From Sphaerolaimus hirsutus (Eukaryota; Nematoda; Chromadorea; Monhysterida; Sphaerolaimidae), in NCBI GenBank assembly GCA_964036195.1, contig OZ038458.1, positions 25,743,832 to 25,807,831 of the forward strand: a stretch of DNA of 64,000 nucleotides. The letters are read 5' to 3'. Of the stretch, positions 13,154-62,551 are shown piece after piece. Within the stretch, counting starts at the first letter, position 1. Each line of letters begins with the position of its first letter. A program made the position numbers and the translations under genes. Under the pieces are notes generated by a model, which worked only from the letters and a program-made list of their open reading frames with translations, had not been told where the DNA came from and did not search any database.

Positions 13154-14709
13154 TAGCATACGAAAAATAACCCGTGATTTATATTTTCGAAAATCACAAT
13201 AAATATAAATAACCTGTGATTTATATATATATTTTTATTTTTTCCAAATAATCAGTGATATATTTATATATATTTTTTTCATTTGAAAAAAATCACTGAG
13301 AAAATCACTCATACTTGATACATTGTGGTGCAATGATTGCACTTTATGACTAAAACATGTAATCTGTGCACTAGAGAAATTTGAAATTTTTTGAGAAATT
13401 TTCTCAAGAAAATCTCTCTGCATATCAAGGGTGTGCTGCTAAAAGTATCGATCTACAAATTTTTCAAATTTGAGTTAGGACCATTTTTTGCATCCCCATA
13501 AAAACGCGCTTCAAAAACAATATATAACATGTGGGGGGTGCAAAATTCAATTTTGAGATATTGTGGGGTTGAAAAATGAAAAAAAGGCAAAATACAGATC
13601 CTGTAATTCAAAAAGTACTGATCTACAAGCTTTTTCAGCTTTTGTACCTTTAAAAGTACCAATCTACACAGTTTTTCCAAAATTGTGCTTTTAAAGGTAC
13701 CTATCTGCACATTATTTTTTGTGCTTCTGAAAGTACTTACGTCAGATAGTTAGCACAAAAAGCACAGCTGATGTTTTCAGCACAAAAACTAACTTTGTGC
13801 TTTTTTATTATGGGTAAAAATACCAATCTACACCTATCTGATTTTGTGCTTTTAAACCTACTGATCTACATGCTAAATATTACCAATTTGTTCCTTTAAA
13901 ATGTCTATAATGTCTTAAAATTTCCTTCCTGCTATGAATTCTATGGTTATGTTTAGGTATAAAACATCTCTCTATCTTATAGCATACTTTTCTGAAATAA
14001 AACATGACTTTGAATCAAAAAATACCAATTTGATGTGATCACAATTTATATACAGTGAATGAAAGCTCAGTTTACCATTTTTGAAAACTGACAATGCTTG
14101 GTGACATGCACCAATGTCAGCTGTTTTCAAATATGGGGAACACTGTGGAAAACTGTCACCATGGTGTCACCAGTGCCATTAGTGTCATCATAGTTGTCAA
14201 AATGTAGCCATGTGCTCAAAAATGAGTTTTTGCAGCACACCACCATAGAAAAAGTGCTAAGCATGAGCGCCTATTTAGTCAAACATCCATTGACACAACC
14301 AGGCACTATAGGTTGAGTGCTAAATGTTTGCAGTGAAAAATATTTTTGAAGTTGAGATTGAGGTTGAACTGAAGGTTAATTTTTCTGTGATATTTGCTTG
14401 ATGTTTTCACTTGTAAAATATTGTATAAATGAATACTGCTTGTAGAATAATAATAAATGGACTGTGGTATATTAGAGTACATTTTTTGTGCTTGCAAAAA
14501 GTAAATAAAGCCCAGAATATCGCTTGAAATGGAAATAAAGCGCAAGTGATTTTTTGAGATTTTTTTCAAGCTTAGAGTTTTTTTTCTCAGTAATTTAATT
14601 ATATTTTCTGGAGACCTAGAGTGATTTATATATATTTATTTTTTTTCCAATGTTGGAGTGATATATTTATATATATTTTCCAAAAAATCGGTGATTTTTT
14701 CGAATGCTA
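13154..14709. mobile_element. hAT-like element, GTGATTTATATAT words
   Basis: Termini TAGCATACGAAAAA and TTTTTTCGAATGCTA, flanked by AGTGTACT at 13146-13153 and 14710-14717 (exact 8-bp duplication). The subterminal zones are full of GTGATTTATATATATTTTT words on both sides. A second element with GGTGTGCTGC ends and AAAGTACCAATCTACA words (about 13430-14245) sits inside. Confidence 0.85.
13430..14245. mobile_element. Nested element with AAAAGTACCGATCTACA words
   Basis: Ends near GGGTGTGCTGC and GCAGCACACC. Its words and first 150 bp (AAATTTGAGTTAGGACCATT, GTGGGGGGTGCAAAATTCAA) match the element at 26482-27147. The exact target duplication is not resolved. Confidence 0.7.
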
Positions 14710-14717
14710 AGTGTACT

Positions 14718-15030
14718 TAACTCCATATGTATTACATATCCAAGCAAAGCATGATAGTTTGGAAAAATATTGGGAATAGTAAAAATATCGTGTAGCCCAG
14801 GAAATGCGCAAAGCGTTGAACTGAGCCATATGTAACTGTAAATACCGGGTGGCCCACGTCAGGCGCACGGTTTTGATTGGCCCCCAACACATCAATTTTG
14901 AATGAAACCCGCTCGAATTTGGTATTGGGGTAAATAAATGTACCCCATTTGTTGTGTTAAGTGCATGGTTTCATATCGCAATATTTCGTGTCAGAACGTG
15001 AAAGAGTTTCATATTTACGTTTTTGAATGT
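14718..15030. other. Unassigned stretch
   Basis: No bounded element. A 62-codon minus-strand frame (14707-14895) repeats a SWATRYF/TWATRYL motif but has no recognisable family. Confidence 0.4.
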
Positions 15031-15349
15031 GTCCCATTTATTGATGGAATGGCGCCATGGCGCTGGCGCCATTTGATGGCGTCAAAGGGCGCCGCGCCAT
15101 GGCGCCATTGGCGCTTGGCGCCCTTTTCCTGTGGCGCCATTGGTGCCTGGCGCCCGCTTTCCGAAAAGCGCCATGGCGCCCTTGGCGCTTGGCGCCCTTT
15201 TCCCGTGGCACCCTTGGCGCCTGGCGCCCTGCCCAAATAGGGAGCCAAAATGGCGCCAGCAGGGTTTCAAGGTGAGAAAACGTGACTGACAACGTAAATC
15301 AAAAATAAAAAAAAAGCGCGTGCGTGGTTACTTCAAATTTGCCGTAAAA

Positions 15350-15449
15350 ATGGACGAAGTTGTTCGAATTGAAGAAAATATTACGTCCAACGGTTCTTCA
15401 AACGCTTCTGATGGATCAGAAGCTGAGAACCGGTCCAACACACAAACTG
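15350..15449 (+). CDS. Possible first exon within the GGCGCC-word family
   Basis: ATG opens MDEVVRIEENITSNGSSNAS followed by an acidic/serine stretch to a donor-like CTG|GTAAAT. A matching but degraded segment lies on the minus strand at about 48955-49046 inside another family member (ATGGACGAAGTGGTGTGAG, TCCAACGGTTCATCAGATG), so it belongs to the family core. About 40 bp further on, TTTCTAG precedes a CILC-containing frame. This may be the remains of a transposase 5' exon with a zinc finger, but that is inference. Confidence 0.35.
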
Positions 15450-15766
15450 GTAAATCAAAAGATTCAAATTGCCGCAATTCAATTTTTGTCCATTTCTAGA
15501 AAACATCAATGAGAAAAGGGAAGTGTATTTTGTGTAACACAGACGTGAGTCTTCAACATGCTTTCCATCTTTGTCACATCTATTTTCAACATGTCTAATG
15601 TTGCTGACGGTCTCGTTTTGGTTGAATTCATCATGGGGAAGTGAATGAACACGTGAAATGTGCGCACTTCGTTGCAGAAGTAATATTTAGAGCGCAGACA
15701 GGGTGTTTTTTGCGACAATCTTTTCTGGCGCCTTTGGCGCCCTATTTTACAAATGGCGCTCCTGGC

Positions 15767-17692
15767 TAGGGTGTCAAATTTCCGTTTCCGTTTTCCGTTT
15801 CCGCCTTTCCGCAGGAAAATTTTTTACCTTTCCGTTTTCCGGCAGCCGAAAAATTTTTACCTTTCCGTTTTCCGTTTTCCGGCAGCTGAAAAATTTTTAC
15901 CTTTCCGTTTTCTGTTTTCCGGCAGCTGAAAATTTTTTACCTTTCCATTTCCGTTTTTCCGGCCCATTTTTCCGTTTTCCGGCTGAAAATTTTTTTACCT
16001 TTCCGTTTCCATTTTACCAGGCCATTTTTCCATTTTCTGGCTCGATTATCAGTTTTCTGGCATTTTTCCATTGTTTTTCCAATCTGTATTTATCTTCAAT
16101 TGGCTCATCCCATTGTGTTGTTTTTGTCTCTTGGAGCAGCATTGACAACTGGGATTTCAGGGTCAGTGAAACAGGTGCTGTGAACCCAATTGGGTCATAT
16201 GCTGACACCAATAATTTATTCAAGTTTCGTCTGGTTGGTGTTGTGATGCTGTCAATTTGCAATTTTGGTGTTGATATTGCCAGCATGTCCGTTCGGTGAT
16301 TTTATTTCATGCCCATTACTGCGACAATTTTATTCACCTTTGGACTCCTGTCGTTTTCTGCTATTTCATTCATGACTGATCTGGAGTTTGACAGCCATTC
16401 CCTCATGTTCATAGAACATCGTTAAATAAAGCTTTGACTTTGTAATATAGTTCTAAAGCTTCAACTTCAGTCTTGACACTCATGATGAAGTTATCGACAT
16501 AAATGTTGTTTATTATCATCGCCAACTGGTTTTGTTTCCCTTCATTTTCTTCGTATTCATTCATGTTGTTTATTGTCACATTTAAATGGTATTTTATGAC
16601 TGCTCCCAAAATTGCTGGGCTGCAGACAAGTACAAACAGTACGCGTTTAAAACAAAGTACTATTATGTTATTTTCAGTTACTGGTTTTGAGGCATCTTTC
16701 AGCCAGAAAAATTGTGTGTAGTCTCTAGCTTGGTCATGCAATCCTATTTGCAAAAATGCCTTTTCAATATTGGCATTTAATGCTAGATTGCCTGCCCTGA
16801 ACCTCAGGAGTAGGCCCAGTGCTAATGGTGTTGTAATTGGTCCTCTAAAAAGGCACTTGTTGAAACTGGGCTTACCTGCCAACCCATTGTACACGATTCT
16901 GCATGATGTCGATTTGCCCGGCGTGATTACTGGCTGGTGTGGCAGGTAATGAATCCCCTTGTTGTCTGTTTTGTCGTCACAGATCTCAATTATTCGAATA
17001 TGTTTGGATCGTTGTTGAATCTTCTTATCAGTGATTTAAACCGCACCAAGGCTTCTGCTTTTCCCGTGGGCACGTCACTGATACTCTCTTTATACGACCA
17101 GTCAATATAGTATTGTTTGTTGTTGTCGTTGATATTTATGCTATTTATTATCATCTCCTCTGCAATGTTGTCATCAATTGCATAGGGGTCATCAGTGATT
17201 CCCACTGCTTCTAGACTGTGAAATTGTCGTAGTGTTTCCTTTCCTATGGCCACTATGGCTACTTTTTGATGATTTTTTGTTGGTTCAGTTAAGCTTGAAC
17301 TACAAGTGAAGTTACAGGCATGTTCCATAGTTGCAGAATGTACAGCTACCACAATCAAAGCCAAACAGGCAAACCTGCATGCAGGTTTTCCTTCTGCAAA
17401 TTTGTCTATTACCGTGCCAATTTCACTTTATTTTTTTCCGTTTCCGTGAAAATTTTGCTTTCCGTTTTCTGTTTTCCGGCATTTCATTTTTCCGTTTTCC
17501 GTTTTCCGGCCGACAATTTTTTTTTACCTTTCCGTTTTCCGTTTTCCGCTGAGTGAAATTTTTTTACCTTTCCGTTTTCCGTTTTCCGGTAGAAATTTTT
17601 TTTTTACCTTTCCGTTTTCCGTTTTCCGTAAAGTGAAAAATTTTTACCTTTCCGTTTTCCGTTTTCCGTAAAAAAATTTTTTTGACACCCTA
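15767..17692. mobile_element. TTTCCG-word hAT-like element carrying a BEL/Pao fragment
   Basis: Termini TAGGGTGTCAAATTTCCG and TTTTTTTGACACCCTA, flanked by CTCCTGGC at 15759-15766 and 17693-17700. Both ends are arrays of TTTCCGTTTTCCG, 210-300 bp each. The middle (about 16014-17390) is a retrotransposon pol fragment. A second copy of the same right half, including the pol junction, is at 41524-41850, so the capture predates the spread of this subfamily. Confidence 0.9.
16014..17364 (-). pseudogene. BEL/Pao retrotransposon pol fragment
   Basis: Three minus-strand open blocks appear in family order. 17364-16990 is the region before RT, with FHSLEAVGITDD and LVRFKSLIRRFNNDP. 16894-16409 is reverse transcriptase, with NIEKAFLQIGLHDQARDYTQ, FVLVCSPAILGAVI and NIYVDNFIMS. 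16286-16014 is the segment after RT, with SAYDPIGFTAPVSLTLKSQL and TTQWDEPIEDKY. The set LEAVGI, IEKAF, SPAIL, YDP[IL]GF and WDEP is diagnostic of BEL/Pao. The catalytic YVDD has become YVDN, and frames are broken between blocks, so it is dead. BEL/Pao elements are known from animals only. Confidence 0.88.
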
Positions 17693-18196
17693 CTCCTGGC
17701 TAGTGATGTAAAAGCGCCATGGCGCTGGCGCTTGGCGCCTTTTTGCTGTGGCGCCATTGGCGCTCGGCACTGTGCTACGGAAAAGCGCCATGGCGCTTTT
17801 GGCGCTTGGCGCTATGATGTCGTGGCGCCATTGGCGCTTGGCGCTAGCGTTTTATAAAGCGCCAAAAAAGCGCCAAGTAGTACAAAAAATAATCATTTTT
17901 CTTATGTAAACAGACCTTGCCTGCATGAGTTACATAAGTAAATGTGTTACTGTGTGTTACAGGAAGAACAAACCCTCTACTTGCTTATTTTGTAAACCAT
18001 GTCCATGCAATTGCATTCAAACTTTCACCAAAAAATGGGCACTAGTTTTCAACGACATTATATGTCAACTGGTTTTCATCCCAATTCAAGGCTTGATGAC
18101 GAGCCAACAAACAGCGTTCAAATGCATAGTGTTGCATTATATTGCAAATGAAGTTGTATTGTTGCTGTGGTATGAAGTACCGGCATGAAGTAGCTA

Positions 18197-19059
18197 CCGT
18201 ATTTCCTTGAAATACACCCAGGGGGTTTATTTTTTCAGGGTGCAAATTTTGAGGGGAGTTTCGAGGGGGGCTTACCTTATAGCGGGAATTAGAGCTCAGT
18301 GTCGATTCGACGTGAAATGATGACGTGAAATGATGTCGTGAAATTAATTACACAAGTGTGGATCATGCTACGGGTCTACAATTTTCTAAGGATAATATAT
18401 GAATCAATACCTCAATCGTGTCCAATACTGAGTGTTATCAGCCACAACTAGAGCGAATTGAAAAATTCAATTTTTATCATTCCACGTCATCATTTTACGT
18501 CAGGGAACAACTTGACATTTCACGTCAGACTATTGCAAGCAATAGTCTGACGTGAAATGTCAAGTTGTTCCCTGACACTGTGACGTGAAATGATGATGAC
18601 GTGGAATGATAAAAATTGAATTTTTCAATTCGCTCTAGTTGTGGCTGATAACACTCAGTATTGGACACGATTAAGGTATTGATTCATATATTATCCTTAG
18701 AAAATTGTAGACCCGTAGCATGATCCACACTCGTGTAATTAATTTCACGACATCATTTCACGTCATCATTTCACGTCGAATCGACGCTGAGCTCTAATTC
18801 CCGCTTTCGGGGGGAATTTTTTATGAAGGGTCGTAGTAAAGTATAGTTTTTTTTGTACCCAAAACGTGATTAATTGATCAAATAGGATATATTTTGGTCA
18901 TATTATCATAGATTGTCCCATAAACAAGGCCATGTATAGCTGCGATGTAAATTCGCAGCTATAAATGTATCATGTTAATTGGATACATGATCTACCTTAT
19001 TCCAGACGGGGTGTATTTCGAGGGGGGGTAATAAAAGGGGGTATTTCGAGGAAATATGG
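18197..19059. mobile_element. Mariner-like miniature element
   Basis: Termini CCGTATTTCCTTGAAATAC and GTATTTCGAGGAAATATGG next to TA on both sides, with a large palindrome nested inside. Confidence 0.75.
18288..18806. mobile_element. Near-perfect palindromic GACGTGAAAT-word element
   Basis: GCGGGAATTAGAGCTCAG at 18288 and CTGAGCTCTAATTCCCGC at 18806 are exact inverted repeats. The arms match almost base for base over about 240 bp to a centre at about 18538 (GTCAGACTATTGC / GCAATAGTCTGAC). The transcript would be a very long hairpin. Confidence 0.92.
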
Positions 19060-19592
19060 TATATGTGTATACACTTACACTGGATAGTGTTACTTGTCAG
19101 CAAGCTTTGAATTGGGATGGCAACCAGTTGACAAGCAGATAGATAGCACTGCATTTGCATCGCTGCACTTTATGCAGCAAAATGTTTTGGCGCTGGCGCT
19201 ATTGGCGCTTGGCGCCATCATCCTCGGGCGCCATTGGCGCTTGGCGCCATGGTCTAGAAAAGCGCCATGGCGCTTTTGGCGCTTGGCGCTATTTTGCTGT
19301 GGCGCCATTGGCGCTTGGCGCTCGCATGCCAAAAGCGCCATGGCGCTTTTGGCGCTTGGCGCCAAAAGTCTGGCGCTTTTTACATCACTACTCCTGGCGC
19401 CCTTTGCCCTTGGCGCGATTGGCGCTTGGCGCCCTCTTTCCGTGGCGCCCTTGGCGCCTGGCTCGCACTTTCGGAATGGCGCCACGGCGCCCTTGGCGCC
19501 TGGCGCCCTTTTCCTGTGGCGCCCGGTTTCCGAAGGGCGCCATGGCGCCATTGGCGCCTGGCGCCCTTTTTTCTGGCGCTTTTCCATCACTA

Positions 19593-29701: not shown

Positions 29702-30095
29702 CTCACCTCATTTTGCAGAACTGGCACCTGAAGCCCCCCCCCCTATTGTAAACCAGCATTTCAAGTGTCAAATTTTTGGTCTGCCGCTTAGGGGATTTTT
29801 AAACTGCATTTGGATCACTGGATTTGAAACTTTTAAGTTTTAAGGTTAACAAAGTTTAAGTATGGCAGTACTTGACAAGTTTGGCAATGGTAACCAAGTT
29901 TGGCTGTTCTGGCACCCACCTTGCCATTGTATAGTAGGGCAACATTTCCTAAAAATTTCAGCTTTCTAACCAGTCCAGAACTGGACATTAACGATGGCAA
30001 AAAAAGATTTGAAAATTTGAAAACATTTTCGAATTTTTGAATTTTTTTCGAATTTTCGAATTTTTATTTCACCCCTAGAAAAAACACTTAAAAAT
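29702..30095. repeat. Direct repeat, second copy
   Basis: Near-identical to 28088-28478. The pair brackets the non-LTR fragment. Confidence 0.8.
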
Positions 30096-30840
30096 CGATT
30101 TATTTTTCAAAAAATTCAAAAATTCAAAAATTCAAATATACTTTTCGAATTTTTCAGGGAATTCAAGGCAACAGTACGTACTCTTAAGTTCGACGTGCTA
30201 CAAAAATTGGCAATTGATACGCGGCGCGTATGAAAAAGCGAAATTTAACATAAAAAAACATCAAAAAATGTAGAAATGTCGAAGAGGCGGACAACGACTA
30301 GTGCCATGTGACTAGTGATGGAAAAAGTGCCATGGCGCCAAACACCAAAAGCGCCACTATCCAAACTATCCCAACCGCTGCGCTCTACTTCCACAGAGAC
30401 AGACGCTACATCAAAAAAAATCATTCAAGGGTCGTCCAAAAGTGCATTTTTTGGAAGGCATTCAGCCCCAGGCCCAGGGAAAATAGCGTCGCAATGTGCA
30501 AACACGCAATGCAACACACGACTCATTCCATTATTTTTTAGGCTAAATTATGGTGAAAATAACATTGAAAAGTGATCACAACATGAAAACAGTCCAAATT
30601 CTGTGTTTAAAGCTTCAGAGTCAACATTTTTCTTTAAAAAATTCGAAATTTATCTGAAAAAATTCGAAAAATAGCCAAAAAAATTTGAAAATTGCCAAAA
30701 AAGATTCGAAAATTCAAAATTCGAAAATTAAATTCGAAATTCGAAAATTATTTTGGAGAAAAATTCGAAAATTCGAAAATTCACTTCAGAAAAAACACTT
30801 AAAAATTTAAATACTTTTTTTCCACTGTTTGCCATCGTTA
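29989..30840. mobile_element. TTCGAAAA-word hAT-like element
   Basis: Termini TAACGATGGCAAAAAAAG and GTTTGCCATCGTTA. The flanks are CTGGACAT (29981-29988) and GTGGACAT (30841-30848), 7 of 8 identical. Both ends are TTCGAAAATTCGAAAA arrays. The core at about 30315-30500 encodes RSTSTETD ... FFGRHSAPG, shared with 31226-31441. A TAGTGATGG terminus starts at 30313 without a visible partner. Confidence 0.8.
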
Positions 30841-31225
30841 GTGGACATACAATGCCCATAGTGTAGAAAAAAGTGGGTGCTGGTTTGAACTCGTTTGAGA
30901 CACACAAACATCAAAAAAGTCAGCAGTTTAGTACCGTACGCAAACCTTGTAGTGAGTAACGATGGCAAACCTCCCAGAAAAAAGTATTTAAATTTTAAAG
31001 TGTTTTTTCTAAAATGAATTTTTGAATTTTTGAATTTTTTCCCAAATTAATTTCAGAATTTGAATTTAATTTTCAAATTTTCGAATCTTTTTTGGCAATT
31101 TTCAAATTTTTTTAGAAAAATATTGAATTTGAAGCTTAAAACACAGTATTTGGACCGTTTTCATGTTTGGAGCCCCTCGTAACCTTAATTTCACTGTAAG
31201 TGAAGCATGACATGACAATTTCACT

Positions 31226-31441
31226 TCACTTTAACATGACAAATGGTAGGAACATTTTCGCTGGGGCTGAATGCCTACCAAAAAACGTTTGTGTGACTGC
31301 CCCTCGGAAGATACGCGAGCGATTTTTTGATAAACCGGTGTCTGTATCCGCGGAAGTAGAGCGCCGCGGTTCTAATTGTTCGGGCGGCGCGGTGCATTCC
31401 TCAACGGATTTGATGGGGTCTACCCATAGGGGATTTTGGGG
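31226..31441 (-). CDS. Conserved open segment in the TTCGAAAA family
   Basis: A 71-codon minus-strand frame, GC-rich, including NPLWVDPIKSVEEC, RRSTSADTDTGLSKNRSR and FFGRHSAPAKMF, ending in TGA. The element at 29989-30840 carries the related RSTSTETD, a spacer and FFGRHSAPG on its plus strand. Identity is better at the protein than at the DNA level between them, which suggests that it once coded. It has no known domain that I recognise. It could be a transposase exon or a captured gene piece. Confidence 0.35.
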   Translation of the reverse strand, partial: PQNPLWVDPIKSVEECTAPPEQLEPRRSTSADTDTGLSKNRSRIFRGAVTQTFFGRHSAPAKMFLPFVMLK

Positions 31442-32119
31442 TTAGCATTTTGGTAGGGGGGGGGGGTTCGCCAGTCGTGACGTGTATATATTTCAGGAAC
31501 CGCTTGGTGAAAAATGTTGAAATTTGGATATATTATGGTTTCAGGCCGGGGCTCTCTCAGATTTTTCCGAAATTTTTCTACGACCCTTCTGACCGGAGAT
31601 AGGGTAGGTCTATAAAAAGTATGTCATTTGCGAAAATTTTGTGTGTCGCTCAGAACATGCAAAGTTTGCAAGCCTGTAACTCCTCACTTTTTGAGCCGAA
31701 TTTAATCATTTCATTTTAAAAATGCTGACAAATGTTAGGAGAGTTCATTTCTGTTGTCAAAACGGTGATACAAAATCTGGTATATATCGATTTCCCCACA
31801 TTTCGAAATACAAAATTTCCAAAAAAAACATTTCGTTTTGAACATGCTATCGTATACTCCTGATCGAGAGAAACTCAATAAAACAAAAATGAGATCGATA
31901 TCTCTTTCCGATCAAAAGTTATGGCGCTTCAAACTTTTCCCTCCCATCCACACAAATACCGTATTTCCTCGAAATACCCCCCCCCCCCTCGTTTGACCCC
32001 CCCCCCCCTCTCGAGACCACTATGAAACAATCACCGCCCCCCTCGAAATACCCCCCCCCAGATTGAGTGTAAAGAGAACGTACATGACAAATACTGCAGT
32101 TTGTGTTCTGCGTAGTGCA

Positions 32120-32745
32120 AAACACACGTTAAGACTCGCTTCGCCTAAGAACCAAACATGCCTATTTTGTTCCTGTCACAAAAATTTTTTTTGCGTTTGT
32201 TTTCATGGATTTGGAATCTCCATAACTAGAAACGTAAAATTTCCTTCCATGCATATATCCGGAAATGTCATCTTCCTACTGAAAAAATTGATCAAAGTCA
32301 AAAGTCACCATTTTTCAGGCTGTTTTTTGGAAATTCATAACTTTTATTTGACTTTATCTATCAATATAATATTGTGTATTTTTATTAAGAAAGTTGTGGA
32401 GATTAATTGGCCCATACAAACTAGTTTCATCAAATGTTTTTTTCTCAATGAAAATGATGGCTGAAATTTTGAAAATGGCATCAAATTTTCATTTTTTAAT
32501 TGAGAGCTTAGCTTTTTTTGCAAAAACTGTGCCTAATTGCATAGTTTATGTTACAAAAATAAAATAGAAAAAGTAGGTCTGGCATTTTTTGCCACAACAG
32601 TTTGAAACAGCCTGACTGACGCCCATCTCACCACCGCAGACAAACCCACTCTGAAGACTCAGATGAAGTTGTATGAAAAAAGTTTTTATCATAAACTTTG
32701 GTCATTTTTACATGTTCCTTCATTTGTATATCTCCATTTTTTATT
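32120..32745. repeat. Left arm of the inner foldback
   Basis: ACTCGCTTCGCCTAAGAACC at 32131 through GGAGATTAATTGGCCCATAC. Pairs with 37850-39235 (GGTCCTTAGGTGAAGCGAGT at about 39217), apart from the insertion 38315-39148. Strongly related to the foldbacks at 2140 and 36400. Confidence 0.85.
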
Positions 32746-33179
32746 AGAACATATATATTTCTGAGTGAACTGCATGCAAAGTATGCCCAATGCAAAAGAT
32801 AGGAGGCACAATCACAGCCTCATTTTTGCCCTATTCGTGTGTGTTTTTGCACACAATGCAGTCACTATTTATTAGTACAAAATGCCCTTCACAAACACGT
32901 TACAATCTTGACAAACAGGGTTAGTAGATGGCAAAGTTGCTTCCCAAGAATGCAATTGCACATGTATAGGGGTTGACTTGAGTTTTTAGGGGCTGAGTTA
33001 ACAATTCAGGGTTGAGTTGATGGGTGTTTATAAATTAGGGTTGAGTTGACAGAAGTTTAAAAATAAGGGGCTGTTGACACAAGTTTACAAATAAGAGGCT
33101 GAGTTTATGGGAGTTGAGTTGATGGGTGTTTGCCAAATTAGGGGCTGAGTTTATGGGAGTTAACAATAACATTACCATA

Positions 33180-34080: not shown

Positions 34081-34084
34081 ACCT

Positions 34085-35045: not shown

Positions 35046-35053
35046 CTCTGAGT

Positions 35054-35720: not shown

Positions 35721-35737
35721 CTCTGAGTAGTGGGTAC

Positions 35738-41523: not shown

Positions 41524-41850
41524 TAGGGTGTCAAAAAATTTTTTTTACGGAAAACGGAAAACGGAAAGGTAAAAAATTTTCACTCAGCGGAAAACAAAAA
41601 CGGAAAGGTAAAAAAAATTTATCAGCTGGAAAACGGAAAACGGAAAAATGAAATGCAGGAAAACAGAAAACGGAAAGCAAAATTTTCACGGAAATGGAAA
41701 AAATAAAGTGAAATTTGCACGGAAATGGACAAATTTGCATGCAGGTTTGCCTGTGGTAGCTGTACATTCTGCAACTATGGATCATGCCAGTAACTTCACT
41801 TGTAGTTCAAGCTTAACTGAACCAACAAAAAATCATCAAAAGGTAGCAAA
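41524..41850. mobile_element. TTTCCG-word element, end with BEL/Pao junction
   Basis: Starts TAGGGTGTCAAAAAATT, then CGGAAAACGGAAA words, then CCTGTGGTAGCTGTACATTC ... CCAACAAAAAATCATCAAAA. This is the reverse complement of 17270-17692, including the boundary of the captured pol fragment. Cut off by the LTR-like sequence that follows. Confidence 0.8.
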
Positions 41851-47655: not shown

Positions 47656-48413
47656 TTGAGGGACCCCCTCCAAACTGTACATTACATCAAAATACATGGC
47701 TAGCATGTGTGCAACCTTAATTAGAGTGGTGTATTTCCTATAATCAACGATGGGTGAGTTCTCAAAATAAAAACACTTTCTGTATTTTGAGTTTTTCAAA
47801 AATGAATATCTGTGCGTTGAGTTTTTTTCACGAAAAAAACTTGAGTTTCCGTGTTTTATTTCTGTGTTTTTTGAAAAAACTTGAGTTTTTTGGTAAAAAC
47901 TCAAGTTTTTTGATAAAAACTCAAGTTTTTCAGTAAAAACTCAAGTTTTTCAGTAAAAACTCAAGTTTTTCAGTAAAAATTCAAGCTTTTTTAGTAAAAA
48001 CTCAAGTTTTTTGATAAAATATCAAGTTTTTTTTGGTAAAAACTCAACTTGTTTTACAAAAAGTTGCATTTTACAGCTTTTCACTGTTGAAACAGTGGTT
48101 TTCGTATCAAATGTTGGTTTTGCATATGTTTTGTCATGTATTGGAAAATTTTCATTAGTTCAATGGAGGCAGTTCCAAATGGGTGACCAATACGTTTTAC
48201 AGCTTGGGAGGTGAGGAGCCCTCAGCTCAATTGTGTGAGCTAGCAGACCCTGATGGACACTCCTCAACACATCGATCACAGTCCCTAATATTGTTGAAAC
48301 CACCACAAGATGTGGACACCATTATTTTTTTGGATACTTATTTCATCGTTAAACTTCACGTACATATTTACACACTATACCTATTTACATACATGCATGT
48401 CTTATGTATGCAC

Positions 48414-50290
48414 TAGTGATGGAAAAGCGCCAGAAAAAAGGGCGCCAAGCGCCAAGGGCGCCATGGCGCCATTCGGAAAGTGGGCGCCAAGCGCCAAGGG
48501 CGCCACAGAAAAAGGGCGCCAGGCGCCAAGGGCGCCATGGCGCCATTCGAAAAGAGGGCGCCAGGCGCCAGGGGCGCCACGGAAAGAGGGCGCCAAGCGC
48601 CAAAGGCGCCATGGCGCCATTTGGAAAAAAGGGCGCCAGGCGCCAAGGGCGCCAGGATAAACAAGTGCCTACAACACCCTGCATGTGCTAAACATGTTGC
48701 TACAGCACCGTGGTACATACATTCACTTCTTGATTCGCGTTCTCCACAATGTAATGAACAAAAACGAGACTAGCAACATAATTTTTAAAAATCCACATGA
48801 CGAATTGAAACACAATGGAAATTGTCATTTGACAATAATCCATTCACTTCAAATAGACTTTTCCAATCGATGTTTCCTTGAAATGGACAAAAACGGAATT
48901 GCAACGATTTGAATCCGTTTATTTGTTTATGATTGTGCAAGTTCGACGGTCCATCATTCTTGTGTCTTCTACTCTTTTGATCCGTCAGACACATCTGATG
49001 AACCGTTGGACGAAAGATTTTCACCCACTCACACCACTTCGTCCATTTTTCTGGCAAATTTAGATCATCCACGGATGCGCTTTTCATTTTTTTTTCATTT
49101 ACACAGCACTCATATTGATACCCTGCTGGCGCCTTTTTGGCGCCCTTTTAAAGTAGTGCGCCAGGCGCCAAGGGCGCCACGGAAAAAGGGCGCCAAGCGC
49201 CAAGGGCGCCATGGCGCCTTTCAGAATGCGGGCGCCAGGCGCCAAGGGCGCCACAGAAAAAGGGCGCCAAGCGCCAATGGCGCCATGGCGCGGCGCCCTT
49301 TGGCGCCCTCAAATGGCGCCAGCGCCATGGCGCCATTCCATCACTAGTGATGTTAAAGGCACCGGGAAAAATGGCACCGCACCGCACCGGCACCTTTGCC
49401 AACACATGAAAAGGGCACCTGGCACCCTGGGGCACCGGCCAGAAAATGGCACCGCACCGCACCGGCACCGGTGCCTTTTGGAAAAAATGGCACCGGCACC
49501 GAAGGGCACCGGCGGGTTGCCGGTGCTAGCACCGAAAGGCACCGCACCGGGCTGGAATTTCTGAAGTGAATATCGGGCAGTTTCTCAGTGGTCTCACTTT
49601 TGGAAGCGCATATTTCCATGAATTTTCAACCGATTTTGATGGTTGAGCACTTAAAATGATAAGAATGATGTGGCAATCACTTTTATGAAGCAATTACAAT
49701 GATTACAAATGAAAGATAAAATATTTAATTCACTGCAATGTCCATAGCCACTATTGTCTACTGATCGGAATCGTTGCTGTACAGAGAATGGAACTATCTC
49801 TGTCATAAACTGACAACAAATTTTGAACAAACAAGTAAGATAAATATAAAATATAAAAATGATTTAAAATTCAACAAAATTTTAGATTCGTTCATCAGAT
49901 CACGTATCGGGTATAATGGATTTCACAGTAGGTATATTTATTTGATGGGAGGTTTACAAAAAAGGCAAAAACGGTTGGGTAAAAATATCGCTGTTTTTTG
50001 AAATATGAATACGCACATACTATGGACAAAATTGCACAGCACATGAAGCCTTGGTTGGTGCCTTTCCCGGTGCCTTTTACTTTGCCCTGGTGCTAGCACC
50101 TTTGGCACCGGCAAAAAAATGGCACCGCACCGCACCGGCACCGGTGCCATTCTGAAAAAAATGGCACCGGCACCGGCATGGCACCCCTGAAGATTGCAAG
50201 GGCACCGCACCAGCACCGGTGCTGGTGCCCTTCGGTGCCCAGCACCGGGGCGCCGGTGCCCCGGTGCCTTTACATCACTATCCATCACTA
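48414..50290. mobile_element. GGCGCC-word hAT-like element (middle of nest)
   Basis: Termini TAGTGATGGAAAAGCGCC and ...TTCCATCACTA, flanked by GTATGCAC at 48406-48413 and 50291-50298. GGCGCC words at 48425-48655 and 49125-49335. The core carries the degraded counterpart of the possible exon at 15350. Net length about 930 bp. Confidence 0.95.
49345..50280. mobile_element. GGCACC-word hAT-like element (innermost of nest)
   Basis: Termini TAGTGATGTTAAAGGCACC and GGTGCCTTTACATCACTA, flanked by TCCATCAC at 49337-49344 and 50281-50288. It landed inside the right terminal repeat of the GGCGCC element, two bases from its end. Words GGCACCGGCACC are found at both ends; core 49560-50040. Confidence 0.95.
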
Positions 50291-50535
50291 GTATGCACAT
50301 ACACACATTGTTCAGTTCAAATCTTGTGCCTTCAATTGCTTGGATAAAAAAACTCAAAAAACATTTCCGTATTTTCTGTGTTTCCGTGTTTCCGTGTTCT
50401 CCAAAAAAGAACTCATTTGAGTTTCCGTGTTTTTCAAAATTGTTGAGTTTCCGTGTTTCTGTGTTAAACAAAAACACGGAAACTCAATGAGTTTCCGTAT
50501 TTAATATGTGTGTTTTTGCCATCGTTGCCTATAAT

Positions 50536-50877: not shown

Positions 50878-52951
50878 CAGGCTGTCCGGGAGGGGCACAT
50901 ACAAACGGGGGTACAGTGGGCACATACAAATTTGTATGTGCCCAAACTTGGAAACATACCTTTTGTTTACAGTTTGTATGTGTCCAAACCACCGGGCACA
51001 TGCATGTTTGTATGTTCCCGTGGCTGGGCACATACATGCGCGTGCGCGCGTGTATGTTTCCAAAACGCGGGCACATACAATTTTTTAGACGTCTGTATGT
51101 TCCCCATCGCGGGCACATACATACTTTGGAAAAAAATTTTAGATAAAGAAAAAAACGGGATATCAGCAGGCTGTCCGCGCTGGAAACGCATAGTGTTTCC
51201 AGCGCGTTTATCGCTGCGCGCCTGCCAAAATCACAAGCGCTTTAACGGAACAAGCATTTGCAGCCCAGAACCGCGTTAGGGATTGATGTATTTACATGAT
51301 CATTGTGTAAAATGTCATGCAAAGTGTCAAAAGTCATGGAAAATCCCCTGCAAAATGGTAACTCAGCCCCCTTACATAAATGTCAGATATTTACATGGAT
51401 AACTCAACTAGGATGAGCAGGGCAAAAATTTGAATCACCCTGTATATTGTATCAATCTATCATGGGACTGCACTCTCTCTATACAAAGTGTTATGTCATT
51501 GGTAAATGAGTCATGTGAAGGAGGCAACTTATCAGAAATTTTTTTGTGATCCTTAGTAAGTCGCGCTGTTGCTCTGCACATTTAATCAAAGTGTGTAGGC
51601 ATATCATGGCGATTTTTTTATTGATAAACTGCACCACAAATTATAGCGAATTGATAGTTTATAGCGTCAGTAAAATTGCTGTGGCGGGCACATTAATGCA
51701 CCTAAATTGCGCATTCAGATTCGCATAGACCTTCTGTTACACCCTGGTGCCACTCCCAAACCCTGTAAAATGTCAAATGTCATGCAAAGCTTCTAATTAC
51801 GTGTAAAATGCCCTGTAAAATGTCAAATGTCATGCAAAGTGTCTAAATTTAAGTACAATTCAATGACATTTTCATGACAGTTCCAGCAGTTTCTAATCAG
51901 TTTTCAGTTTTTAATCATTACTACCGCCAAAAATCGACAAGTGTTCATTTCAGCGGCGCCAATGGCGCTCCACACGGTGGTTGACGCTACTTTTTAGTAG
52001 TCGATTGAGTCAACTCAGAGTCAACTGTTTTAAGTATAACTATTTTTAATTTTTTACCTGTGTTGATTAAGAAATATTGAGACGTGGATTGATGCAGAAT
52101 GAAAGAAGGGGATTTTTTGGATACATATTGTAAATGGCTCAGAGTCAATTGAATTTTTGACCAGTTAACTCTGGGTTGACGCTAATTTTGGCGTCAACTA
52201 GCGTGTGTGGGACCAATCTTTGAACTTAAGGGTGCCGGCATTTTCGCACCTGAAAAAGTGGAGATCGGCGCTTCGCCGATCATCCAAACTCACTCTGGCT
52301 GACCAAAAATTTTCGTCCAATCATTTTATCAATGTTCATCGTTTTATTGTATTATGATGCAAGGAAAATGCGCTTGCAATGCATCGTAAATATTTATTGA
52401 TGCCAGGCACTCCACGCGGCCCGCTCATTAGCGGAACGCGTGCATAATTGTGGAGTGTCTGCATTCAATAAATATTTTTTATTGTGTCGCAATAGATAAA
52501 AAAAGCCCAAATTTTTTTATTTTTAGTGAATTTGGATGATCGGCCAGGCGCCGATATCTGGTTTGAAAGGCGCCATGCACAAATGCTAACTGTCGGCACC
52601 CAAAACTTTTTAAGGATGAGTGTCGCTGTACTGAAAACAACAGTAATTTATTTTTGGCAGCAAAAACGGTGTATGTTCCCAAAGCCGGGCACATACAATT
52701 TTTAAAAAGTATGTATGTTTCCAAAACTGGGCACATACACGTTTTTCTGAAATGTATGTGCCCGAAATCATGGGGAACATACACGCGTGTATGTTTCCAA
52801 GCGCGGGCACATGCATTTTTTTCAAAAGTTGCATGTGCCCAAAGCTGGAAATATACATTGTTTTTATCGCGTGCATGTTCCCAAATGTGGGGAACATACA
52901 CACCGGGCACATGCAGGGGCACGTACGTATGTGCCCCTCCCGGACAGCCTG
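50878..52951. mobile_element. GGGCACATACAA-word element with 8-bp duplication
   Basis: Termini CAGGCTGTCCGGGAGGGG and CCCCTCCCGGACAGCCTG, flanked by GCAAGGTG at 50870-50877 and 52952-52959. The empty site is at 35869-35876. Words GGGCACATACAA, TGTATGTTTCC and GTATGTGCCC at 50895-51125 and 52665-52940. The core (51130-52660) holds a second CAGGCTGTCCG with a 12-bp stem hairpin (51176-51206), AAAGTGTCA words at 51305 and 51755, GTTGACGCT segments at 51965-52205, and a hairpin with AATATTTATTGATGCC arms at 52388-52480. No coding frame. Confidence 0.93.
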
Positions 52952-56464: not shown

Positions 56465-57291
56465 CAGGGTTGGCAAAATCTCAGAAAAAAATAAAATTAA
56501 AATAAAATGGAAAATTGGAGAATAAAATATAATAAAATAAAATGGAAAATTAATAAAATAAAAATACAATTTTACTAAAATTCGAATTTTTGTAAAATTT
56601 TAGTAAATTGTACAATAATTCGAATTTTTGTACAATTTTAGAATAATTTTACAAAAACTCAAGTGTCTGTTCAATTCTATAGAAAGTTTTCTATCATGTT
56701 GCTTAAGTTCCTAGCTGCCAATTTGCAGAACTAGTGCCTTGTTGTATCTTTCATTGTTGTGATTGAGAAATATTGTTGCTCAAAATTTTCCAATTTTCAC
56801 ATTTTTTATAATATTTTCACCTTAAAAATCACTAATTTGTGATTTTTTTTTTATTTTCTTTGTTCCATACCTTGAAAAAGCCTATAAATATATTGAATCC
56901 CGCAATCCCCCCCCCCCAAAAAAACAACAACCCACTTTTAGCTATCTTCCCTTGGGAGGAGCAATTAGCTCCCCCTGAGGGTCAAAATACAAAATACCTA
57001 CCTCGCAACCCGTGTCACAAGTTTACAAAAAAATTTTTTTGTATTCATCCACATGCTTCTAGCGTGCACATTGTTTTATGTCCTTGCATCCAAGATTTCC
57101 GATTTTTTGTAAAATTTTTGTAAAATTTTTGTAAAATTTTTGTAAAATGGTTTCATTTTATTTTATTAATTACATTTCAGAATAAAATAAAATAAAATAA
57201 ACTGAAACATGAATAAAATAAAAATAAAATACAATTTTAATAAAAATAAAATACAATTTTAGTAAAAAGAATTTTACTAAAACCAACCATG
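56465..57291. mobile_element. AATAAAAT-word hAT-like element, 827 bp
   Basis: Termini CAGGGTTGGCAAAATC and ACTAAAACCAACCATG, flanked by CTTTGAAG at 56457-56464 and 57292-57299. Words AATAAAATGGAAAATT, TTTTTGTAAAATTTTTGTAA and TAAAATAAAATAAA lie around a core of about 350 bp. Confidence 0.95.
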
Positions 57292-57862: not shown

Positions 57863-58057
57863 CAGGGTTGGTAAAATCACAGAAAAAAATAAAAATAAAA
57901 TGGAATTTTCAAGCATAAAATAAATTAAATAAAATGGAAAATTATGTAAATTTGTACATAATGTATTCATATTTTATAATGGTACAAAAAAGAATTTCAA
58001 GATGGCATGCACATCTCATGGTGGATTTGACACTTTAAGTTTCAACATTTAAATATA

Positions 58058-58393
58058 CCTTATTACCTCGAATTAATCCCCCCTTGAATTGACCCCCCTC
58101 AAAATGGACTGGTGAAATAATAAGCCCCCCCCCTCTAAATAGCCCCCTCCGGGATGATGTACATCATGTATTCAATGTACATGATGTATTTATTACTGCT
58201 AATTTGAATCACAGCTACACATAGACTTTACTAGGTTGTGTAGCTATCTACATGTTTATTTCAAATATATCCTGTTTGTATGCATTTATAACCTGTTTTG
58301 GGTACGTAAATGCCTTTTTACTATTTTCTATGATCCTTACAAAACTTTCTGATGAAAAATTAAACTCCCATGGGGGTATTTCGAGGTAAATGG
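58058..58393. mobile_element. Mariner-like miniature element
   Basis: CCTTATTACCTCGAATTAAT and GGTATTTCGAGGTAAATGG next to TA, with C-rich inner ends. Confidence 0.65.
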
Positions 58394-58609
58394 TAGTTGT
58401 AGTTCAAATCAATTCCGTAGTCTTCCATACAGTGCACATCCATTGAAGAATTTTGGAGTACTGCGTAAACTGTCGTTTCTGGGCATTTTGTTGCTGGTGT
58501 TGTGATGTTGATGTCCTCATTGTGGACATTTTTATGGACTTTTTTGACACATGAATGAATACACAAATGTTATGTGGGGTGAAAACATGTGTAAAACCAA
58601 TATTTTATA

Positions 58610-58858
58610 AGAAAACCACTGTTTCCAGATCGAAATGCTGTAAATCGAAATTTTTGGGGGAAAACTCAATTTTTTTGGAAAAAACTCGAGTTTTTTAGAA
58701 AAAAACTCAAAAAACTCGAGTTTTTACAAAAAAACACAGAAATAAAAACAGAGTTACTCAAGTTTTTTTCAAGAAAAAAACTCAAAACACAGGTATTCAT
58801 TTTTAAAAAACTCAAAACACAGAAAGTGTTTTTTTTTGGAGAACTTACCCATCGTTGG
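58610..58858. repeat. ACTCAAG-word arm with CCATCGTTG terminus
   Basis: AAAAACTCGAGTTTTTT words ending GAGAACTTACCCATCGTTG, the reverse of 47745-48060. The other terminus was not found. Confidence 0.7.
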
Positions 58859-59281
58859 TCATGACAATTGACAAATTGCATTACATTTAAAAAATGTGCC
58901 CAGCACACTCCACTAGTCCTGCTACTGAAAATTCAAACCATTCTTATCAATAATTGCAACTTTACACTTGCAGCTAGCTAACAATACATACTGCATGCAA
59001 CTTTTGAAAAGTAAGGGCAAATCTTGTCACAGGTTTTTCATGTATAGGTCTAATTATAACATTTTTCTGGCCTTGCATGCATGATTCTGATTTTTTGTAA
59101 AATTGTTGTACAATTTTTGTAAAATTTTTGTAAAATGTGTCATTTTATTTTATTAATGACTTTTGGGAATAAAATAAAATAAAATGAAACAAGAATAAAA
59201 TTAAAATAAAATATAATTTTTATACAATTTTTATACAATTTTACTAAAATAGATTATTATAAAACCAACCCTGCCACCAAG

Positions 59282-59662
59282 TATATTAAAGTACATTTTA
59301 ATACAGTAAAACAAAAAAAATTTGTTCAGTAACAAAAACTTAAGAATGCTTTTCTAAAGGGAATGGCTCACACACACTATTATACCTAATTTTCCATGTA
59401 GATTTGGATGTAACACTTGGAAATCAGTTTTGAACGCTTACATGAATCAACTGCAGTTGTTGGGGATTGAAAAAAAACGTATTTGAGTTAACTCAAATGC
59501 GTTACCTTTTGAGTCTTCCAAATTTCTGTTGAAAACTGTTGTGTAGGCACAATTAGCATTGAAAAATGGCCGATTTTGAGAAAAATGATTAGATCTCTCT
59601 GGAAAATCGTGAAAAAATATAAAACTCAGAAAATCTTACATTTTCTGATATTTTTAAATATA
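59282..59662. other. Nothing recognised
   Basis: AT-rich sequence without bounded repeats or a supported frame. Confidence 0.4.
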
Positions 59663-59990
59663 CCGTATTTGCTTGAATAATCCCCCTGGGGGATCATGAT
59701 CTCGTCAGACATTTTTGAGGGGGGGCTATTCGAGGGGGGAATTGTTCAAGAGGGGGATTTATTATTTTGTCAAAATTTTCAAGCCTGTTTCTATCAACTC
59801 ATTTCATGAAATATGGTTTATAAACACAATAACATGCCATTTTTGTTAAAATTAGGTAGAACATATTAATGAAATCTTTAAAGGGGGGATTATTTGAGGG
59901 GGGGATTATTATTTCCTCACTCGTCTTACAGGGGTGGGATTATTTGAGGGGGGAATTTTTCAAGGGGTGAAACTACTCAAGCAAATACGG
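59663..59990. mobile_element. Mariner-like miniature element, 328 bp
   Basis: CCGTATTTGCTTGAATAATC and CTCAAGCAAATACGG next to TA on both sides. G-rich GGGGGGATTATTTGAGGGG inner parts. Confidence 0.8.
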
Positions 59991-60122
59991 TAAATCTCCC
60001 AGAGATTTTTTCAATGCTAGGCACAATACACAACAATTCTGATACAATCCAAGAACATATTTTACCTAAATAATATGAAAACTATTCGTAATTTTGTCAG
60101 GATAACGAAAACACTATGCAAT

Positions 60123-61420
60123 TAGGGTTCAAACGGGATTGACTTTTCGGGATCGGGATCGGGATTGGTTTTTTGAGATTTCGGGATCGGGATCGGGATT
60201 GGCCGGGATTGGGGTCACGGGTAGTGATGTAAAGGCACCGGGGCACCGGTGCCCCGGTGCTGGGCACCGAAGGGCACCAGCACCGGTGCTGGTGCGGTGC
60301 CATTGCAATCTTCAGGGGTGCCATGCCGGTGCCGGTGCCATTTTTTTCAGAATAGCACCGGTGCCGGTGCGGTGCGGTGCCATTTTTTTGCCGGTGCCAA
60401 AGGTGCTAGCACCAGGGCAAAGTAAAAGGCACCGGGAAAGGCACCGGCCAAGGCTTCATGTGCTGTGCAATTTTGTCCATAGTATGTGCTTATTCATATT
60501 TCAAAAAACAGCGATATATTTACCCAACCGTTTTTGCCTATTTTGTAAACCTCCCTATCAAATAAATATACCTACTGTGAAATCCATTATACCCGATACG
60601 TGATCTGATGAGCGAATATAAAATTTTGTTGAATTTTAAATCATTTTGATATTTTATATTTATCTTACTTTTTTGTTCAAAATTTGTTGTCAATATATGA
60701 CAGAGATAGTTCCATTCTCTGTACAGCAACGACTCCGATCAGTAGACAATAGTGTCTATGGACATTGTAATGAATAAAATATTTTATCTTTCATTTTTAA
60801 TCATTGTAATTGCTTCATAAAGGTGATTGCCACACCATTCTGATCATTTTAAGTGCTCAACCATCAAAATCGGTTGAAAATTCATGGAAATATGCACTTC
60901 CAAAGGTGAGACCACTGAGAAACTGCCCGATATTTACTTCAGAAATTCCAGCCCGGTGCGGTGCGGTGCCATTTTCTGGCCGGTGCCCCAGGGTGCCAGG
61001 TGCCCTTTTCATGCGTTGGCAAAGGTGCCGGTGCGGTGCGGTGCCATTTTTCCCGGTGCCTTTAACATCACTAGTCACGGGATCGGGATCGGGATCGGGA
61101 TTTTTTTGGGATCGGGATTGAGATAGAGAATTTGGTCAATGTTTTGGCATCCACAGTTGTTCATAAAGGTCTAAAAACACTGTTGGATTCCAGAAACGTG
61201 GCATAAAATGAACACTGGGGGTTTGCGTTCACATTTTTGCATGCCAAAACATCGTTTTTTCACTTTTGATAATTTACAGTAATTTTTCCGGGATCGGGAT
61301 CCCAGACTTTGAAGTTTCTCGGGATCGGGATTTGAAAAGTTTCGGGATCGGGATCGGGACTGATAAATCCCGGAATTTCACGGGATCTGGGATCGGGATC
61401 GGGATCCCGTTTGAACCCTA
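60123..61420. mobile_element. GGGATC-word hAT-like element
   Basis: Termini TAGGGTTCAAACGGGAT and ATCCCGTTTGAACCCTA (17 bp, perfect), flanked by TATGCAAT at 60115-60122 and 61421-61428. GGGATCGGGATC words at 60150-60215, 61080-61120 and 61290-61415. A GGCACC-word element is nested in it; net length 438 bp. Confidence 0.95.
60222..61073. mobile_element. GGCACC-word hAT-like element, 852 bp
   Basis: Termini TAGTGATGTAAAGGCACC and GGTGCCTTTAACATCACTA, flanked by GTCACGGG at 60214-60221 and 61074-61081. It is in reverse orientation to the copy at 49345-50280 and shares its core (CATACTATGGACAAAATTGC and reverse). Confidence 0.95.
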
Positions 61421-61428
61421 TATGCAAT

Positions 61429-61709
61429 GCAAGTTTTCTCTTGTGACCTTCAAATCAAATCAAATCAAATTAGGTAAGTTTACTCGGCTCGGACCTCTAG
61501 AGTCTAATGCAAGTAAAGTCATCTAATGTGATGTAAAAATTGCCACTCAACTCACACATGTTGGTTGTGAAGCGCACAATTATTTTATGTCTGGTTCTAT
61601 TGGTTTTTATTGGCGTGCTGTGACGTGACGGGACCTTGATTGAATGAACATATCAACATTTAACCCTGCCTACGCAATGTCTACATAAACTCAACTGCAT
61701 TTGCTGTCG
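61429..61709. other. Nothing recognised
   Basis: Contains a short AAATC microsatellite (about 61451-61470). No frame or bounded element. Confidence 0.4.
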
Positions 61710-61717
61710 CCCCATAG

Positions 61718-62551
61718 CAGAGTTGTTCAAATACTGGTATTTTTGGAAAACGTAAACGTAAACGTAAATACCTTTTCCAAATTTAAAGTATAAATACTAA
61801 AACGTAAGGTATTTTTAAAATACCAAGGAATACGTAAAAAAAAACGTAAACGTAAAATTTTTAAGAAATACCCCATATGAGCAGAGCTTCTGAAAAGATC
61901 ATTGTTGTGACATTTTCAACAATGTATACATGATTTGCATCCACATTTTTCACTTGCGTTTTTTCTTCAGCAAACAAAAAATCTTCTTTAATTTTTGTCT
62001 ATTTGTTAATTGGTGCTTATGGCCTCGCAGTTTAGGAAACTGAAGGATTAGCATGCACTTCTTCAACAAAAATTACATTACTGCGAAACATCAGCAGGAT
62101 ATGAATGAAACAAAACAGTGGAAGATTGTATAATGCACAACACAAATACATAGGTACACACATTCCATTTTTCTGCTTGTATCTATTGCTAACACATTCC
62201 TTCACACTGTTCACATTACACATTGATTACATTTACAATTGCGTCATTACATTTATTCACAAAATTTCCACTGTCAAAAAGATGATTAGACAACAACACA
62301 ATTGGCATTACATCCAATTGGTATAACTATTTACACAAAATCAATGTGTGAATGTAGTAATTGAGCACATTTGGCAGACGCGTGGTTTCGTGTAGCTGGA
62401 TTTTTACGTTTTCTCTAGTACCCGGGTAATTGTACCAGGAAAACGTAACAAAACGTAATGGTATTTTTAGAAAACGTAAACGTAAATGTAAATATAAATA
62501 CCCGAATAACCGGGTATTTCGGGTAAACGTAAATACGTTTTTCCAACTCTG
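61718..62551. mobile_element. CGTAAA-word hAT-like element, 834 bp
   Basis: Termini CAGAGTTGTTCAAATAC and TTTTTCCAACTCTG, flanked by CCCCATAG at 61710-61717 and 62552-62559. Left and right zones consist of AAACGTAAACGTAAATACC words, and the core is 61865-62400. Confidence 0.96.

Follow-up and report, generated by a model that had tools for sequence, protein, structure and literature searches.

Probable hAT-type non-autonomous elements with switching subterminal words in the genome of the nematode Sphaerolaimus hirsutus

The window analyzed here is a stretch of 64,000 nucleotides from Sphaerolaimus hirsutus (contig OZ038458.1, positions 25,743,832 to 25,807,831, forward strand). It carries adjoining and nested insertions with inverted ends and 8-bp target-site duplications (TSDs), many of which hold arrays of a short, family-specific word near both ends. 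In the family with CAGAGTTG termini, the word occurs in three spellings genome-wide, and the word set of an element appears to change spelling as a whole. These elements are probably non-autonomous hAT transposons in which the words serve as putative transposase-binding subterminal repeats.

Insertions in the window

A sequence-only reading had delimited 17 insertions, and a position-by-position check of the window found each of them where it had been placed, with inverted ends and matching 8-base flanks. The duplications are perfect in 15 cases, match at 7/8 positions at 29989-30840 and at 6/8 at 57863-59273; control flank offsets of 4-7 and 9-11 bases gave nothing comparable. The base preferences described earlier likewise hold, with T at position 2 and A at position 7 of the duplication in 10/17 cases each. 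Termini TAGGG, TAACG, CAACG, CAGAG, CAGGG, and TAGTG are of the YA..G type; TAGCA and CAGGC deviate.

An unguided scan of the window for a direct duplication plus inverted ends was run at several k, with five block-shuffled windows as control. At k=8, 42 pairs were retrieved versus 19-28 in the shuffled windows. Pairs starting with YA numbered 16 at k=8 versus 2 and 3 for k=7 and k=9; at shorter k, where the chance level is high, there were 11 (k=6) and 30 (k=5). The 16 comprise 13 of the 17 listed insertions, two chance pairs within word arrays, and an 18th element at 59554-60019. The four listed insertions that escaped the scan have imperfect ends or duplications. Facing termini were also tested in the window and in 14 genome stretches of 10 kb selected for hAT-domain matches. 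A duplication of at least 7/8 flanked 46 of 75 facing pairs versus 0 of 300 shifted controls, a test that is not independent, as the terminus families derive from the earlier reading or from a duplication scan of the same stretches, and one of the 46 (28384-30840) draws on a flank that is itself duplicated.

Elements and truncated ends in the window are as follows (strand given where assigned):

13154..14709, element with ends TAGCATACGAAAA/TAGCATTCGAAAA, TSD AGTGTACT; without a clear word array, class unproven
15039..19592, TAGTGATGGA-type element with left tip TATTG, word GGCGCC, TSD GTCCCATT; hosts two nested insertions
15767..17692, TAGGGTGTCAAA element, TSD CTCCTGGC; its 36 CGGAAA words all lie on the minus strand; BEL/Pao-like core
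16409..17035, minus strand, BEL/Pao-like reverse transcriptase (RT) fragment forming the core of 15767-17692; has relatives with Pfam domains
17701..19390, TAGTGATGTAAAA element, word AGCGCCA/GGCGCC, TSD CTCCTGGC as in its left neighbor
29989..30840, TAACGATGGC element with 12 TTCGAA words, TSD 7/8
30957..40690, TAACGATGGC element of 9.7 kb, TSD GTAGTGAG; contains two nested elements and several tandem-repeat blocks
35054..35720, TAGGGTGTCAAA element, TSD CTCTGAGT; its 28 CGGAAA words all lie on the plus strand
38315..39148, CAGAGTTG element with AAACGTA vocabulary, TSD GTTTCTAG
47745..50527, CAACGATGG element, word AAACTCAA, TSD CCTATAAT; hosts nested 48414-50290
48414..50290, TAGTGATGGA element with GGCGCC words, TSD GTATGCAC; right terminus split by 49345-50280
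49345..50280, TAGTGATGT element with GGCACC words, TSD TCCATCAC; in the terminus of 48414-50290
50878..52951, CAGGCTGTCCGGGAGGGGCACATAC element, word GGGCACATAC, TSD GCAAGGTG; class unproven
56465..57291, CAGGGTTGG/CATGGTTGG element, TSD CTTTGAAG; ends A+T-rich
57863..59273, CAGGGTTGG element, TSD 6/8
59554..60019, the 18th element, absent from the earlier reading and found by the unguided scan; ends TAGCATTGAA, TSD GGCACAAT
60123..61420, TAGGGTTCAAAC element with CGGGAT vocabulary, TSD TATGCAAT; hosts 60222-61073
60222..61073, TAGTGATGT element with GGCACC words, TSD GTCACGGG; nested in 60123-61420
61718..62551, CAGAGTTG element with AAACGTA vocabulary, TSD CCCCATAG
1356..1559, truncated TAGTGATGT end with GGCGCC words
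41524..41847, plus strand, truncated TAGGGTGTCAAA end that carries CGGAAA words and leads into part of a core of the 15767-17692 type

The elements adjoining within 15039-19592 belong to different families and have one 8-mer in common, CTCCTGGC, which occurs three times, at 15759, 17693, and 19391, as if the second element had entered the site duplicated by the first. Element 49345-50280 was inserted within the last 10 bp of 48414-50290. A 14-bp flank, CCAGAACTGGACAT, precedes the TAACGATGG terminus twice, at 28370-28383 (left end at 28384) and at 29975-29988 (before 29989), as would result from a local duplication or from truncation of a first copy.

The elements are transposase-deficient and Ds-like, in that the same ends enclose different cores. 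Among six CAGAGTTG cores long enough for comparison, only two pairs are alike. The core of 15767-17692 matches the core of a single relative (117 bp at 71%), and the truncated end at 41524-41847 adjoins a core 86% like that of 15767-17692 over 346 aligned columns. The RT fragment in this core gave no match by Pfam alone at 1e-3; it has 107 relatives, many with PF00078 and some with PF05380, and the name BEL/Pao-like is our own reading of these two domains. As described for maize, Ds elements (Ac/Ds) likewise combine short termini, 8-bp duplications, and subterminal repeats of a short word with variable filler that includes captured sequence (PMC3260210). The maize system differs in that one hexamer is described for it, whereas here at least seven words occur in one genome and a terminus family can have two or three spellings.

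Subterminal words and their strand layout

Words are enriched many-fold and lie in most elements within 300 bp of an end. The sequence-only reading had given each family dozens of copies of one word. Not all families reach this number: several have 8-20 copies, and in three elements (13154-14709, 56465-57291, and 57863-59273) nothing stands out as a word beyond A+T-rich strings. Outside the window, the CAGAGTTG-ended L047:3798-4710 is almost without words, and L048:2709-3197, of the CGGAAA family, mostly has TGGAAA instead of CGGAAA. The arrays had also been called over-expanded, a description that is not supported: most CGGAAA elements have about 9-19 words per end, and the two ends of Hermes, a hAT element of Musca, have 17 and 14 candidate BED sites (PMC10368747). 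The literal presence of the Ac motif AAACGG inside the CGGAAA arrays was confirmed; Ac transposase binds AAACGG repeats, three copies of which suffice (PMC3260210).

Strand layout was scored from the tip inward at each element end. In 13 elements of the CGGAAA family, among them several near-identical copies, 372 of 372 CGGAAA words in the terminal 300 bp keep to one strand, so that one end is all inverted and the other all forward, without an inverted first pair. At one end of CAGAGTTG elements, the first word (bp 12) is forward and the second (bp 21) inverted; further inverted words follow, and then a forward one near bp 140. This '+------+' pattern is present in four of six elements, and the other two are short of one or two words. 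The opposite end has forward words from bp 31 or 37, with one inverted word in each of L039 and L043. Hermes is described as having quasi-palindromic STR1/STR2 at bp 11-27 of the left end, with STR2-STR7 antisense and right-end STR1-STR5 sense (PMC10368747), where we understand 'sense' as read from each tip. The CAGAGTTG layout is thus similar, with an inverted pair at bp 12-27 followed by inverted words and an opposite end that is nearly all forward; it differs in that its 7-bp word varies less than AAG(T/C), and in that Hermes is autonomous and experimentally tested. Asymmetry of this kind, with an inverted pair inside one terminus, was observed for AANNGTA, CGGGAT, CGATAT (less strictly), and the AGCGCCA words of 17701-19390. 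GCACCG elements have one mixed end and one nearly all forward. A given word is common to both ends even though the ends are otherwise unlike.

The earlier proposal that the words are transposase-binding sites gains indirect support from this layout in several families and from word-only switching in one (below). The layout is missing in the TTCGAA and GGGCACATAC families. We regard it as the best structural argument for the words as subterminal repeats.

The notion that the words are satellites lacking termini was rejected for the window, since 7 of 11 clusters outside the elements lie no more than ~130 bp from a terminus of the matching family. The remaining four comprise a weak cluster at 63050, a small one of AAACTCA at 55375, and word matches within the tandem blocks of 27-bp and 30-bp units near 53-54 kb.

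Concerted word switching in the CAGAGTTG family

Thousands of CAGAGTTG termini fall into three vocabularies: AAACGTA, AAGCGTA, and AAGTGTA. Two elements with CAGAGTTG ends and perfect duplications, L039:3372-4125 and L043:2333-3104, can be aligned along both ends. Between them, 15/15 AAGCGTA words read AAGTGTA, with 0/85 other word letters and 14/189 letters outside words changed. Between L039 and L012, it is the preceding letter that differs in 15/15 words (13 are AAACGTA, one is degraded, and one is unaligned as a word), with changes at 6/85 other word letters and 31/189 letters outside words. A hypergeometric test of the key letter gives 1.8e-17 and 1e-12; these values assume independent sites and a letter fixed beforehand, although it was picked after the alignment had been seen, and serve as a rough guide only. 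When every word letter is weighed against every letter elsewhere, the difference is not significant for the single steps (P 0.19 and 0.11); for the two-step pair AAACGTA/AAGTGTA, the same count gives P 0.001. The effect lies in one letter of the word.

The pattern extends genome-wide. A first-end pattern with three free dinucleotides matched 3454 places (control, 0). The compositions below refer to the first 100 places listed for each of three patterns, all from the start of one contig. For the first end, these comprise 35 AC/AC/AC, 27 GT/GT/GT, 25 GC/GC/GC, and 13 mixed triplets; 87/100 are thus pure versus 10.8 expected if words varied independently, and 11 of the 13 mixed triplets owe their state to a single deviating word. 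A second-end pattern with two inverted words matched 3954 places, and the two words are in the same state in 89/100 versus 32.4 expected, with GT/GC mixtures in 4/100. Opposite ends also agree. Within the covered stretch, 71 of 94 first-end places face a second end within 0.3-2.5 kb; both ends are pure in 59 of these 71 paired elements and agree in 59/59, the other 12 having a mixed end. No paired element among the 71 had two different pure states at its opposite ends.

We considered whether such arrays are neutral tandem repeats born of slippage, their vocabularies products of CpG decay or repeat homogenization with no binding involved. GCG to GTG and CGGAAA to TGGAAA are indeed changes of CpG type, tandem words exist (AAGCGTAAGCGTAAGCGTAA), long GGCGCC arrays act like minisatellites, and decay of the CA type would be invisible in the first-end pattern, where the letter following the free ones is fixed as G. 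AAACGTA to AAGCGTA and CGGGAT to CGATAT, however, are not CpG changes. In the AAGCGTA/AAGTGTA pair, all 15 word changes yield TG and none CA, and 3/5 CpGs outside the words are kept. Moreover, dispersed words in unique spacer, inverted words, and words at the opposite end all change alike, slippage does not act across inverted words and opposite ends, and a single word serves two otherwise unlike ends. We regard a neutral origin as very improbable.

Switching is less clear elsewhere. The TAGGGTTCAAAC family has two states, CGGGAT and CGATAT, at 4456 places, with a pattern that misses outside variants such as L046. Counted by eye among the first 100 listed, 78 are GG/GG, 17 AT/AT, and 5 have one or two deviating letters; no GG/AT hybrid occurs among them. 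The two forms are treated as two subfamilies because the AT form is one base shorter between words. As a second clean switch, GGCGCC/GGCACC is unproven: the alignment is ambiguous, with 5/11 words in register and 28/68 outside letters changed.

Transposase remnants and class assignment

A profile search of the 348-Mb genome (G000) gave 28 matches to the hAT dimerization domain (PF05699), 21 of them inside delimited elements: nine in TAGGGTGTCAA, seven in TAACGATGGC, and two in CAGAGTTG elements, and three in two TAGGGTTCAAAC elements. For four of the 21, the duplication matches at 7/8 positions, and the L024 and L025 matches represent a single insertion in a duplicated stretch. One further match lies in an apparently nested element and six are unplaced. 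None of the 21 falls in the TAGTGATG, CAACGATGG, CAGGGTTGG, TAGCAT, or CAGGC families. A match at L045 was rejected as proof of hAT membership for TAGTGATG, given that CGGAAA arrays flank the domain, which probably belongs to a nested CGGAAA element.

The hAT membership that the sequence-only reading proposed is accordingly borne out by 8-bp duplications, YA..G termini, and dimerization-domain remnants in four terminus families. Ds-type hAT identity is shown for these four; the TAGCAT and CAGGC families, in whose termini no hAT coding remnant was seen, remain unclassified. Duplications of 8 bp occur in other transposon classes too, and the set could be mixed, with some families belonging to another such class (P, Merlin). 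TAGCAT (13154 and 59554) and CAGGCTGTCCGGGAG (50878) deviate from the other termini and showed no hAT remnant, and the hAT domain inside TAGGGTGTCAA, TAACGATGGC, CAGAGTTG, and TAGGGTTCAAAC elements speaks against the same for those four; a mixed set is a reasonable possibility, if not the one we favor.

Ten PF05699 pieces were compared by BLASTP, with one copy each of the two types other than CAGAGTTG and TAGGGTTCAAAC. Identity is 88-99% within the CAGAGTTG type and within the TAGGGTTCAAAC type, and 27-45% between the four types where BLASTP matched, the CGGAAA and TTCGAA copies giving no reported match with each other. On these values, four words go with four transposase-domain types. The earlier formula of one vocabulary per transposase fits the four families with a domain remnant, but two or three vocabularies can occur among elements with the same termini, and no transposases were found for the switched ones.

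The gene-like copy at L037 has a BED-like stretch near the locus end, as judged by eye. Its candidacy as an autonomous CAGAGTTG element was not supported, as its 10 kb contain neither such words nor recognized termini. At E 0.001, no homologues were found for the L037 domain exon or for the open reading frame at 28643-29707. A PF14291 search gave no matches, as did its controls, and Rfam gave none at gathering scores. Seven of eight zf-BED (PF02892) matches lie on G000 contig C1 at 7.466-7.680 Mb, six within 25 kb, and are perhaps a host gene family.

A proposed reader of the words

The elements are best explained, with good though incomplete confidence, as Ds-like hAT transposons that are non-autonomous and mobilized in trans by several transposases, their words being putative BED-bound subterminal repeats swept to a new spelling. 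The N-terminal (BED-type) DNA-binding domain of a transposase would bind the words, and its catalytic part would read the short terminal repeat. Should the DNA-binding domain shift its preferred letter, elements with matching words would be copied, the word set would be swept to the new spelling, and the family would split into separately recognized lines. Likeness within a subfamily follows from shared descent, which leaves unexplained why founders differ at nearly every word. Selection by a word-reading protein does explain founders that differ at nearly every word, at both ends and in one register, with alignable spacers. From the terminal position and strand layout of the words, we infer that the reader is the transposase N-terminal domain.

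The concerted switch by itself points to a sequence-specific reader without telling which protein. The words could instead be bound by a different protein, encoded by the elements or by the host, such as an anti-silencing factor of the VANC kind; the vocabularies would then follow that protein and not the transposase. There is precedent in Arabidopsis: VANC proteins bind short motifs that have accumulated in the non-coding DNA of VANDAL elements, and the motifs differ between related VANCs (PMC5735166). VANDAL thus shares family-specific short motifs that differ between related elements. VANDAL motifs, however, are reported to change with tandem-repeat formation (PMC5735166), whereas here spaced words change in place near both termini of hAT-class elements. 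The words also hug both termini, elements of 0.4-0.8 kb retain both arrays, and the Hermes-type layout in several families, including the CAGAGTTG inverted pair, is expected for end recognition by a transposase. We therefore consider another reader unlikely. A further parallel is Galileo, of the P superfamily, whose long ends have multiple sites for the THAP domain of its transposase (PMC3688188); it belongs to another superfamily.

Several points weigh against our favored explanation. A Hermes donor with mutated left-end sites kept about 70% of its activity (PMC10368747). The Hermes-like layout is absent in the TTCGAA family (both ends mostly inverted) and the GGGCACATAC family (mixed) and is weak in the AAACTCAA family. 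Two looser L039 words at one end, an inverted AAGTGTA at bp 52 and an AAATGTA at bp 143, are off the spelling of their element and were not counted. Because two families depart from the layout and two words from the switch, our confidence was lowered slightly. In addition, 2/5 non-word CpGs did change in the AAGCGTA/AAGTGTA pair, a clean word-only switch is known for one family only, and the CGGGAT/CGATAT split rests on few words. Copies within a subfamily share descent, so that thousands of copies amount to few founding events. No intact transposase with any of these termini was found; the best gene-like hAT copy, L037:4886-9950 (minus strand), consists of several open pieces, leaves its 10-kb stretch, and has a dimerization domain that shares 59% identity with the CAGAGTTG one. 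Finally, none of the eight zf-BED matches genome-wide was seen inside an element flanked by a duplication in the ~3 kb around each.

More generally, hAT ends may be read by two separable modules, of which the word module evolves by switches of a whole vocabulary, some 15 words at a time, yielding mutually insulated lines; we put this forward tentatively, at somewhat short of even odds. No report of word switching in hAT elements was found in the open-access literature searched (subscription journals and repeat databases lay outside the search). As far as that literature goes, concerted switching among elements with the same termini is new, and so is the number of vocabularies in one genome. 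How hAT transposases find ends beyond the terminal repeat, and how dependent copies retain or exchange the transposase that mobilizes them, is known mainly from a few single elements (Ac, Hermes, and Tol2). The thousands of termini in this genome suggest that selection acts on the subterminal word as a unit; neighboring spellings are one letter apart at about 15 sites. It thereby becomes directly testable what subterminal repeats do, by what code the DNA-binding domain recognizes its sites, and how related transposon lines are insulated. If the proposal is true, the genome is a natural library of mutually insulated transposon systems and of transposase-word recognition pairs.

Other repeats

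The exact terminus TAGTGATGGAAAAGCGCCA occurs at 5316 places genome-wide (backward control, 0), and the element at 13154-14709 has 64 matching pieces, the window copy counted. Further families with 8-bp duplications were observed: TAGGGTTGGGAA with ACCCGA words, CAGGGGTCTC, and CAGGGACGTA (L050:3367-6198; L041:6928-7438 and 8776-9226; L043). Within the window, a block of ~2-2.5 kb is present twice in inverted orientation, at 33008-35053 and 52960-55533, and consists of four adjacent tandem arrays with units of 29, 116, 30, and ~27 bp. Its two copies are roughly 70-88% alike in aligned pieces, and the first ends at the CGGAAA insertion at 35054. Coding regions of long terminal repeat (LTR) retrotransposons, with gag, reverse transcriptase, RNase H, and integrase pieces, lie at 42474-47313 (plus strand) and 4738-6521 (minus strand), with Pfam matches on parts of them. 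Units of 15-17 bp that resemble AGGGGGGAATTATTCG form short tandem runs at 2061-2110, 9082-9151, 10706-11224, and 62930-62984.

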